A program made the position numbers and the translations under genes. This document shows positions 3,528 through 11,595 of a stretch of 44,637 bases of DNA, piece after piece. Source of the DNA: a virus; IMG/VR virus record IMGVR_UViG_3300049216_000614, positions 1 through 44,637 of that record; one strand, 5' to 3'. Position 1 is the stretch's first letter. The number at the start of each line of letters is the position of its first letter. The notes below the pieces were generated by a model. It made no database searches. It was given only the letters and a program-made list of their open reading frames with translations, and was not told where the DNA came from.

Positions 3528-3955
3528 TACAGGCTACAGGATTTCACCAGGCTAATGTAATGCTGCTCGAGATCAGTTACCCGGGCGCCACCAAAACCGA
3601 GTTTAAAACCATCTATGGCGAAACCCGCGAGCAGCGCGATCAGCGCGGGTGGGAATATATCTACCAGCTAAATAAGAACCGGATATCGGTTACGCTCTGC
3701 AGCTGGTTAAAGCAGCGCATGTTCGGTTTAAAGGATTATTCGACCGCGAGATCGGCCCAGGCTGCCCGGTTGCTGGTGCTGATGAATTACCATAACCAAT
3801 TTCACTACCTGAAAATGTGCAAGCTTATAGCGGACAACCGCGCGGCCATTGAGGAAGTGGCGCCCGGTGAGCAATCGAGGTTTTACAACGATTATAAGAA
3901 CCGCATCCTCCCGATCCTGGAGGAATGCGATCTGATGAAAGGAGCGAAGCCATGA
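3524..3955 (+). CDS. Hypothetical early protein
   Basis: ATG 3524 overlaps the previous stop (ATGA) and sets the start; the frame extends further upstream without a better start. The product is 143 residues, basic and helical, with 'YGETREQRDQRGWEYIYQLNKNRISV' in the first half and several Tyr-rich helices later. I do not recognise a family. Its place in the early operon suggests a role in takeover or replication, but nothing in the sequence defines one. Confidence 0.65.
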   Translation: MIQATGFHQANVMLLEISYPGATKTEFKTIYGETREQRDQRGWEYIYQLNKNRISVTLCSWLKQRMFGLKDYSTARSAQAARLLVLMNYHNQFHYLKMCKLIADNRAAIEEVAPGEQSRFYNDYKNRILPILEECDLMKGAKP

Positions 3956-4152
3956 CTAACGCGACGCTGACCAAACTGGATATACTGCTGGAGCGCCGGT
4001 TGCATTATCAAAAAATGCGGATGATATACGGCCAGGAGTTTAACGAGCTGCTGGCTCAAAAATATCTGAGTGACACGGAGGAATGGATAGACCGGATTTT
4101 GGAAGAGATCACGCTGCCATACCTACCAGGAATTTTAAAAACTGGAAGATAG
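3952..4152 (+). CDS. Hypothetical small early protein
   Basis: The product is 66 residues from ATG 3952, again overlapping the preceding stop as ATGA. It is predicted to be almost fully helical (TKLDILLERRLHYQKMRMIYGQEFNELLAQKYL). No family is recognised. It is the last gene before the long non-coding stretch at 4153-4604, so readthrough of the operon would carry the structured RNA described there. Confidence 0.6.
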   Translation: MTNATLTKLDILLERRLHYQKMRMIYGQEFNELLAQKYLSDTEEWIDRILEEITLPYLPGILKTGR

Positions 4153-4604
4153 TTCTTTAAGGCGGAGGGTTAGTGTACCTCTCCATAACAACCGGTTACA
4201 GTTCCGGAAGTATTTGGGCATTCGTTCTTTATAAGAGTCAAAAAATTAACAGCAAAGCTGTTTTGAGGCTGGCCAGCCCTGTCGGTATTCGGATAGAACC
4301 AACTTGATCAACTGGCTATCGCAGAACGGAGATCGTCAATGGCCAAGGCGATAGGAGCCCCGTAAGAGAAAGTCCTCTTAGCTCCAAATGTGTGTGTAGT
4401 TCAATGGACAGAATGACTCGGGTATGCTTTGCTACACGAGCGGATAGAGGTTCGAATCCTTTCATACACTCAACCGGTTTCATAACCCGGTTTGCGGCTT
4501 CTTCCATGTGGCCGTAATTGTGATAAGGTTTAGGTTTAGGACTCTGAGACGCGATGTTGAGGAGTCCTTATTTAAAAGCTAATTATTAACTAAAACATAA
4601 AAAA
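4153..4604 (+). ncRNA. Non-coding stretch rich in hairpins, possible structured RNA
   Basis: This 452-bp gap in an otherwise gap-free operon holds no credible gene on either strand but many short perfect stems: GGAGGG/CTCTCC (4164-4184, one wobble), AACAGC/GCTGTT around AAA, the 12-bp palindrome GGCTGGCCAGCC, TATCGC/GCGATA (4318-4353), GGAGC/GCTCC enclosing TAAGAG/CTCTTA (4354-4385), then the tRNA-like domain, AACCGG/CCGGTT, CGGC/GCCG and AGGACTC/GAGTCCT (4536-4566). CAACCGGTT is repeated at 4189 and 4469; its palindromic core could join the two ends. The orientation is taken from the operon and the tRNA-like part. No family was recognised. Confidence 0.55.
4388..4468 (+). tRNA. tRNA-like element with an abnormal anticodon arm
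   Basis: The parts fit tRNA order. Acceptor ATGTGTG pairs with CATACAC (6 of 7 pairs, one G-U). TA at positions 8-9 is followed by D-arm GTTC/GAAT with GG in the loop. The T-arm AGAGG/CCTTT encloses TTCGAAT (one G-U). The variable region is 4 nt and CCA is not encoded. The anticodon arm is wrong for decoding: a four-pair stem CTCG/CGAG encloses a 16-nt loop (4419-4434) that can extend as GTA/TAC and GC/GC around TTT. So this is a tRNA mimic, a decayed tRNA, or one with a small insertion, rather than a normal isoacceptor. Confidence 0.6.
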
Positions 4605-4823
4605 ATGGGACTGAAATTAGAAAATGCGGAGCAAATTATTGAGACACTTCAAAAGCATCTTCCTGATGCCAGGATAAAGAACGTGGTATCGAGTGTAACA
4701 GCTACTATTCAAGGACCTTTTGCAGGATCAATCTTAAAAGAAATTATCCACGAGGTTGTGTTTTTCAACTGTGATTTTTCGATCTATCGCTCAGGGACCG
4801 GGCTAACTATCAAATTCGTTTAA
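4605..4823 (+). CDS. Hypothetical small protein
   Basis: The product is 72 residues from ATG 4605, which follows a run of A without a clear Shine-Dalgarno. It reads as a helix (ENAEQIIETLQKHLP) and then an alternating hydrophobic/polar second half (VVSSVTATIQGPF, EVVFFNCDFSIYRSG) typical of a small alpha/beta fold. No family is recognised. It follows the structured non-coding stretch and precedes the MazG-type gene by three bases, so it is probably cotranscribed with that gene. Confidence 0.55.
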   Translation: MGLKLENAEQIIETLQKHLPDARIKNVVSSVTATIQGPFAGSILKEIIHEVVFFNCDFSIYRSGTGLTIKFV

Positions 4824-10544: not shown

Positions 10545-10829
10545 ATGAGTAAAAAAACCAACCAATTTGCAAAGCTGTACACATTTGATACCTGTCAGCT
10601 TATTGTTCGGACGTATTTTAATAACGATAAAGAAAAGAACGAGGTGATTTTTATCACGCAATCCAATGGATTGCAAATTAAGCAAACAGTTGGCTTTCCA
10701 GTCGACTTCCTTGCTGATAGTTACCTGGAAATTTTCGACCGGAGAAAAGCCCGGAAAATATTCAATAACCTGCAAGGCATTGAAAAAGGCGACGTTGATT
10801 TTTTAAATGATTTTGAGAAAGTTATATGA
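10545..10829 (+). CDS. Hypothetical early protein
   Basis: The product is 94 residues. ATG 10545 follows a good Shine-Dalgarno (GGAGG, six bases before). The first half looks like beta strands (AKLYTFDTCQLIVRTYFNNDKEKNEVIFITQ) and the second like helices with 'FDRRKARKIFNNLQGIEKGDVDFLNDFE'. It overlaps the following start by ATGA. I do not recognise a family. Confidence 0.6.
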   Translation: MSKKTNQFAKLYTFDTCQLIVRTYFNNDKEKNEVIFITQSNGLQIKQTVGFPVDFLADSYLEIFDRRKARKIFNNLQGIEKGDVDFLNDFEKVI

Positions 10830-11164
10830 AACGACACGAATATTACGGCTTTAAAAGCGAAGAGCAGCTGGAGGCGCATATCAAGAGATATTATCCAAAG
10901 CCATTTACCGATATGAGCGTAGCGCATAACGCGCACTTATGGCAGGATATCTATACCCTCGGTAAAGAATTATTCGCTCCGGATTTAATTGGCGACAAAT
11001 TTTACTTCCGAAATGGTTTGGCACTGGCTGCCGCTTTAACCACCCGGTTTGGCAAAGATTATGATATCGACGAGCTGGACAGGTTACTTGCAATCGGTTA
11101 CCGGTTTGAAAACGGGGCTTATGTGTTTGAGCGTAATGATTTTTATAAGGAGGTAACGGAATGA
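10826..11164 (+). CDS. Hypothetical early protein
   Basis: The product is 112 residues with ATGA overlaps at both ends. It is helical and mixed-charge, with 'FKSEEQLEAHIKRYYPKPF' and 'DIDELDRLLAIGYRFENGAYVFERNDFYKEV'. No catalytic or DNA-binding motif is seen. It directly precedes the DnaA-domain gene, so a part in replication is possible on position alone. Confidence 0.6.
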   Translation: MKRHEYYGFKSEEQLEAHIKRYYPKPFTDMSVAHNAHLWQDIYTLGKELFAPDLIGDKFYFRNGLALAAALTTRFGKDYDIDELDRLLAIGYRFENGAYVFERNDFYKEVTE

Positions 11165-11595
11165 ATCACCAGGAAGCATTGCAGAAATTTATCGACCTGC
11201 CTGAGCAGGAACGTACCTGGTTGCTGGAATTAGTGACGCTGCAGCCGAAGAAGACTTTACAACGTCCTCAAATAAAAAATCAAGATGTTAAGGCCAGAGC
11301 GGTATTGATCATTTTAGGTGTGTGCAGGGTATTGCAACTGAGCCCGCTTAGACTGAAGGCCAGGAATAACAAACGTGAATTTTCGAATGCCCGATTCATG
11401 GTTTACAATTTACTTCATCAAAACGGCTTTATTAAACTTCACATTGGAGAACTTTTTAGCCGTGATCATTCAACTGTATGCTATGGTATTAACCAGCATG
11501 AAGATTTGATATTAACCGACCGTGGATACAAAGCAAAATATGAATGTGTAGTTAATCATATCGCTTTAAACGTTCTAAATAAACTTGCATCATGA
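11161..11595 (+). CDS. DnaA domain IV-like DNA-binding protein
   Basis: The C-terminal part of the 144-residue product matches the double-strand DNA-binding domain of DnaA: 'KREFSNARFMVYNLLHQNGFIKLHIGELFSRDHSTVCYGINQHEDL', with the signature RDHSTV at 101-106 (GRDHTTV in DnaA), whose residues contact the TTATCCACA box. The AAA+ part of DnaA is absent. Such proteins can bind DnaA-box-like sites and either recruit or block the host initiator. About 1.9 kb downstream lie 12 TATCCA motifs, the core of a DnaA box, which makes that cluster the obvious target. Confidence 0.82.
   Translation: MNHQEALQKFIDLPEQERTWLLELVTLQPKKTLQRPQIKNQDVKARAVLIILGVCRVLQLSPLRLKARNNKREFSNARFMVYNLLHQNGFIKLHIGELFSRDHSTVCYGINQHEDLILTDRGYKAKYECVVNHIALNVLNKLAS

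Follow-up and report, generated by a model that had tools for sequence, protein, structure and literature searches.

Non-decoding tRNA mimics, as judged from their sequences, recur in bacteriophages, and in one case, that of phages of the gum bacterium Porphyromonas, the RNA is clearly conserved. The element from which this analysis started lies in a viral DNA of 44,637 nucleotides, analysed over its whole length and hereafter called the window. It was confirmed as a real tRNA-like element, and its RNA is predicted to be unable to decode since it lacks a 7-nt anticodon loop. Phage tRNAs are already known; what may be new is the recurrence of a phage tRNA-like RNA that would not decode. Non-translating tRNA-like elements are known in principle, as described for tRNA-Other (PMC3399842), and among titles and opening lines of abstracts, with few subscription journals covered, no conserved non-decoding tRNA-like RNA of phages was recognised.

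The tRNA-like element of the window

The features of the element and its surroundings are the following.

4354..4385, + strand: hairpin on the upstream side, 4 nt away from the element; its membership is only suggested (10 of 60 random sites equal it)
4390..4470, + strand: tRNA-like element without a 7-nt anticodon loop, from acceptor to discriminator (Rfam RF00005, pair count)
4390..4396, + strand: 5' strand of the acceptor stem, GTGTGTG (7/7 pairs with 4463-4469)
4399..4414, + strand: D-arm, nearly identical to that of Bacteroidota tRNA-Arg (CCG, CCT), with 4/4 pairs and one edit in the 20 nt of 4397-4416
4416..4441, + strand: anticodon arm, with 4/5 stem pairs and a 16-nt loop at 4421-4436 (pair count)
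4446..4462, + strand: T-arm with a TTCGAAT loop (5/5 pairs)
4463..4469, + strand: 3' strand of the acceptor stem, CATACAC (pair count)
4470..4471, + strand: discriminator T and then C, at the position of C74 (sequence; C in 9/9 listed elements)

The Rfam tRNA model (RF00005, gathering score 29) matched the element from end to end with 42.5 bits and an E-value of 7.8e-6 for the whole window. By direct count, 20 of the 21 stem pairs of the cloverleaf were formed: all seven in the acceptor (six Watson-Crick and one G-U), all four in the D-stem and all five in the T-stem (one G-U each), and four of five in the anticodon stem, which encloses a loop of 16 nt (GGTATGCTTTGCTACA). The element scored 14.5 with a cloverleaf descriptor made for this analysis, and a single shuffle, covering 1.33 Mb, gave no match of 14 or more. 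A previous sequence-only reading had placed the element at 4388-4468, two bases to the left of the position found here; its existence was borne out, as was the near-intact state of its acceptor, D-arm and T-arm. That reading had also described an anticodon arm with a 16-nt apical part extended by further pairs. The enlarged loop stands, but the inner pairs are at chance level, as 533 of 2000 shuffled loops folded at least as well, and the extended anticodon hairpin was dropped as a conserved feature of the window.

ARAGORN with default settings found no tRNA in the whole window. When introns were allowed (-i) it reported the element as 'tRNA-Ser(gct)' with a 7-nt intron, a reading that was dropped because the body is tRNA-Arg-like and the class II variable arm is absent. 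The relaxed ARAGORN check that had been proposed (-ps80 and -ps60) has no discriminating power, the number of places reported in the window ranging from 29 to over 200. Folded in isolation by free energy, the 81-mer was not predicted to form a cloverleaf and its folding energy was ordinary (z -0.47); therefore, it is the tRNA pattern, rather than the energy of the fold, that makes the case for the element.

With canonical tRNA (RF00005), and specifically tRNA-Arg, the window element shares the acceptor, D and T arms, the consensus T-loop and the C after the discriminator. It differs in having a 16-nt loop and 4/5 pairs where canonical tRNA has a 7-nt loop on a 5-bp stem, and in its discriminator U, which is unusual for arginine tRNAs; decoding would not be expected. 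The tRNA-like domain of tmRNA is likewise an acceptor and T-arm without anticodon, whereas the window RNA keeps its D-stem. No tmRNA was called in the window by ARAGORN, and the only Rfam match above the cut-off was tRNA. Two near-identical 12-mers were also observed in the window, at 4189-4200 (CAACCGGTTACA) and 4471-4482 (CAACCGGTTTCA); the second starts immediately 3' of the element's discriminator, and a hairpin between it and AACCCGGTT could form.

Genome setting and origin of the window element

The record is a 44.6-kb contig of a virus that infects Bacteroidota. One of its ends has a tyrosine integrase, and the record further contains a gene for a GerE-type regulator, the element, and genes for a MazG-like protein and a DnaG-type primase. 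The order of regulator and then primase is common to Cellulophaga phage Ingeline and Flavobacterium phage 6H, and no element was found at a descriptor score of at least 9.5 in stretches of these two phages and of Leptospira phage LE3. A small phage protein encoded at 11161-11595 of the window has the C-terminal helix-turn-helix domain of DnaA.

Comparison of the D-arm stretch with 44 unique tRNAs called by ARAGORN in genome loci revealed that the six nearest were all tRNA-Arg, the best of them differing by one edit in 20. When 395 Bacteroidia genomes were searched at the DNA level, five short matches emerged, three of which were D-arms of tRNA-Arg. At the other two (L304 and L308; L-numbers are locus or record labels of this analysis) ARAGORN called no tRNA, and L304 had neither a credible protein match to the window nor a full acceptor partner. 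From these likenesses, the best explanation is that the window RNA would derive from a Bacteroidota tRNA-Arg whose anticodon loop was replaced.

The search for homologues of the element itself was negative. Window positions 4150-4610 found none in phages by blastn, two sequence patterns of the element had no match in viral contigs, and the element pattern with one mismatch allowed matched twice in 395 Bacteroidota genomes, neither time at a tRNA called by ARAGORN. As markers for relatives, the MazG-like protein gave only three weak loci and the ORF at 3925-4152 none. A helicase search of 395 Bacteroidia genomes found relatives, whose loci contained no element at a descriptor score of at least 11. 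The primase proved to be a useful marker. Because no close homologue of the window copy was found, we can only infer selection on this copy. The earlier statement that the tRNA shape had been kept and not the decoding function thus agrees with the pattern seen in related phages and in the Porphyromonas-phage family described below, and it may hold for the window copy as well.

Non-decoding elements in phages sharing the primase

Primase relatives in IMG/VR numbered 139, of which 80 were kept. Rfam tRNA matches at E ≤ 0.001 were present in 17 of the 50 records that were scanned whole, and several of them were odd. Non-decoding elements were found in L007 (two), L012, L013 (two), L022, L024 and the group L065/L067/L068, whose elements are near-identical to one another. 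Those of L007 are in tandem and have greatly enlarged anticodon regions; L013 also has a tandem pair, the second of which (L013b) has 113 nt between acceptor and T-stem; the loops of L022 and L024 are enlarged; and L012 has 10 nt between acceptor and T-stem and is followed by CCA. The anticodon arm is enlarged, rebuilt or absent and the interior varies from 10 nt (L012) to 113 nt (L013b), the helix of acceptor and T-arm being kept throughout. A looser descriptor, demanding only a T-arm and a matching acceptor, gave 49 matches in 81 sources at a score of at least 12, against 1.7 in shuffled sequence. It added L012 and L065/L067/L068, and many of the 49 were ordinary tRNAs, some of them grouped in arrays (L036, L037 and L041).

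A C follows the discriminator in 9/9 elements (window, L007a, L007b, L012, L013a, L013b, L022, L024 and L067), which the descriptor did not demand and which was likewise seen in the ordinary Bacteroidota tRNAs examined. The non-decoding tRNA-like RNA of primase-sharing phages is a kind and not a sequence family, and the window element shows its traits: the acceptor and the T-arm are paired, an anticodon loop of 7 nt is missing, and a C follows the discriminator. The bodies are unlike, that of the window resembling tRNA-Arg and that of L007a tRNA-Leu, which suggests that such elements may have arisen repeatedly.

Ordinary Met tRNAs occur in nine records (L014, L020, L023, L026, L027, L028, L035, L060 and L069). 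That of L035 sits between regulator and primase, the same map interval as the window element. No homologue of the window tRNA with a normal anticodon loop was found, the finding which, according to the earlier reading, would have pointed to simple decay, yet this phage carries an ordinary tRNA in the same place. The element could thus be a phage tRNA-Arg gene in recent decay, in which the anticodon loop has grown by an insertion while the remaining arms are still unbroken. We consider this unlikely, while giving it real weight: it agrees with the tRNA-Arg-like D-arm, with inner loop pairs at chance level, with the Met tRNA of L035 and with the lack of a homologue showing conservation of the window copy. 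Against decay stand the 20 intact stem pairs of 21, the occurrence in related phages of several elements of this kind that do not resemble one another, and the Porphyromonas-phage family, conserved with compensatory changes. In three Met(CAT) tRNAs located upstream of the primase (L014 3706, L035 4221 and L060 17) the first acceptor pair is mismatched, a feature of initiator tRNAs, and from this they are possibly phage initiator tRNAs.

A conserved RNA in Porphyromonas phages

Phage025a (BK068106) has a descriptor match in the interval from its HTH repressor to its primase. BLAST located this region in 17 phage records, all of Porphyromonas, eight of them covering at least 80% of the query. 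The records that can be checked by name belong to phages described as Nixviridae that integrate into tRNA-Pro (PMC10367356, PMC12451628). The T-arm and the acceptor end were present in all 12 records examined of the 17. Eleven of these 12 sequences were aligned, L288 being omitted as 99% identical to the first, and in 11/11 the anticodon-like loop is 11-17 nt long and mostly U-rich. Short hypothetical proteins annotated across the RNA in these records (e.g., BK068106 1111-1296) may not correspond to real genes.

Without fitting, 90.9% of the 363 cells of the alignment were paired; 500 shuffles gave 79.7 ± 1.1 and slid controls 39-45%. Changes on both sides of a pair occurred in 45 cells against 17 ± 3 in shuffles, and the covariation score was 0.385 against 0.163. 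Two of the five measures in the shuffle comparison did not exceed the shuffles, namely the count of pairs altered in both strands (12, equalled by 43 of 500) and the further pair types (equalled by 455 of 500). Compensatory changes fall in the acceptor, D and T stems, those of the T-stem at four of its six pairs, and the anticodon-like stem was paired in only 59% of unfitted cells. When the stems were delimited by hand, which favours structure, 354 of the 363 cells paired and 15 of 33 pairs had both-sided changes. The covariation thus argues that the shape of this RNA has clearly been preserved by selection.

The Rfam tRNA model had no match at E ≤ 1 to this RNA in the seven loci scanned. A model built from the Porphyromonas-phage RNA alone, without any tRNA, was then used against 395 Bacteroidia genomes and gave 17 matches in 16 genomes, every one of which coincided with an ordinary tRNA gene, tRNA-Leu in 11 cases. 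That such a model finds tRNA genes is independent evidence for the tRNA-like nature of the RNA. Among 77 sources it added elements in L060 (E 9.6e-4) and, weakly, in L030 (E 0.11), and it had no match to the window at E ≤ 10. The window RNA and the Porphyromonas RNA are alike in kind, and the model lends no support to a single sequence family.

The U-rich loops raise the possibility of a regulatory small RNA on a tRNA scaffold, in which the body would give stability and processing and the insert at the anticodon loop would be the working part. The inserts are diverse and sometimes long, as in L013b, and the Bacillus cereus tRNA-Other has been proposed to form the tRNA-like portion within a larger regulatory RNA (PMC3399842). 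However, the inserts have no common sequence, L012 has hardly any insert and that of the window is only 16 nt, so that a scaffold is an improbable explanation. tRNA-Other is, like the window RNA, a tRNA-like molecule and is reported as non-functional in translation; it differs in being chromosomal and flanking a genomic island (PMC3399842), whereas the window element is a gene of a phage and belongs to a set of several dissimilar elements.

Position of the elements and upstream hairpins

In the window, L007, L012, L022 and L067 early genes flank the element, which precedes the primase, and in L067 it ends about 30 nt ahead of the primase start. Both observations would suit a cis-acting processing site, at which RNase P and 3' enzymes would cut the early transcript and set the mRNA ends for replication genes. 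But the element can be as close to the primase as about 30 nt or more than 6 kb away (L013), and in phage032a of the Porphyromonas family the genes annotated to the left and right of the RNA are on the opposite strand. Should these flanking genes be real, their message would not be cut at the RNA; Pfam gave nothing for or against them. This explanation is, in our judgement, quite improbable.

Hairpins likewise end within 2-7 nt of other elements. They were compared with 60 random sites per locus, counting those that did as well, and the counts were 10 for the window, 2 for L007a, 33 for L012, 23 for L013a, 17 for L013b, 5 for L022, 0 for L024 and 4 for L067, with 5, 2 and 25 in three Porphyromonas phages. 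For comparison, among four ordinary Met tRNAs the counts were 1, 27 and 60, the fourth being too close to the contig end. A hairpin belonging to the element is suggestive only, and as a defining feature it was dropped in view of the values for L012 and L013a. In L177, the phage of L024, hairpins flank the element at 1501-1579 on both sides with the same loop, TTAACCAGA, as if binding one factor.

Possible function

The explanation that we prefer, with confidence about evenly balanced, is that of a non-decoding tRNA mimic acting through its acceptor/T half. The phage RNA, derived from tRNA-Arg and unable to decode after replacement of its anticodon loop, would be transcribed and would probably mature like a tRNA, through RNase P at the 5' end, 3' trimming and CCA addition. 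The mature RNA may then occupy an enzyme that reads the acceptor/T-arm half, or mimic its substrate. This half, with the 3' signature of tRNAs, is the sole part kept by all elements of the kind, the decoding end being lost, and it is read by RNase P, the CCA-adding enzyme, EF-Tu and several toxins. The 20 pairs formed of 21, the elements of related phages and the covariation in Porphyromonas phages count for the mimic. On the other side are the lack of a close homologue, the failure of the Porphyromonas model to match the window, the non-cloverleaf fold, the Met tRNA of L035, the two measures that did not exceed shuffles and the 59% pairing of the anticodon-like stem.

The sequence-only reading had put forward a decoy for host nucleases that cut the anticodon. 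Phage tRNAs do counter tRNA-cutting defences (PMC11555353), and the window element is likewise a phage gene of tRNA type with potential relevance to tRNA-directed defence. However, the tRNAs described in that source are intact and decoding and replace what is cut, whereas the window RNA would not decode. The loop that such nucleases cut is missing from it, and the elements have no loop sequence in common; because the cleavable anticodon loop is absent, a decoy of this type is very unlikely. A better fit would be a decoy directed at enzymes whose target is the CCA tail or the acceptor/T half. Within the mimic explanation we would therefore rank host enzymes attacking the tail or acceptor (as decoy targets), tRNA-maturation enzymes and EF-Tu above anticodon nucleases. 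With regard to Cas12a3 and its described substrates (PMC12851939), this nuclease would be no more than a candidate target of the window RNA. It is conceivable, at low probability, that Bacteroidota phages have repeatedly made anticodon-less mimics, processed and tailed as tRNAs, as decoys against acceptor-stem and CCA-tail defences such as Cas12a3-like nucleases and tail-modifying toxins. If so, these RNAs would form an anti-defence class of their own, different from tRNAs that act by rescue.

The usual explanations of phage tRNAs are codon supply and rescue from anticodon nucleases, neither of which suits non-decoding RNAs. The Porphyromonas phages show that a tRNA-shaped RNA of this type can be conserved, and what a phage gains from tRNA shape alone becomes a testable question. 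Such RNAs escape default finders, since ARAGORN missed the window copy and the Rfam tRNA model that of Porphyromonas phages.

Other tRNA-like matches

Several matches were not counted among the elements: that of L180 (66 nt, below the Rfam cut-off), a minus-strand match in L012 (4509-4569) taken as chance, and the descriptor matches in the large phages L185/L187 and L267, with C after the discriminator in one of five in L185/L187. L185 and L187 (252 and 223 kb) contain ordinary tRNA arrays together with tRNA-like elements of odd interior, one of which, at 2719-2814 of L185, is followed by CCA. Also left out was L179, a 44-nt minihelix far from the primase and with G after the discriminator. 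Located at 1501-1544 of a 97.8-kb phage contig, it consists of acceptor and T-arm without D or anticodon arm and reached 28.6 bits with Rfam, just under the cut-off. Finally, matches to the Rfam RT-17 RNA (gathering score 40.4), below threshold but consistent, were observed in L014 at 10572-10653 (36.4 bits) and in L005 at 11213-11300 (34.2 bits).
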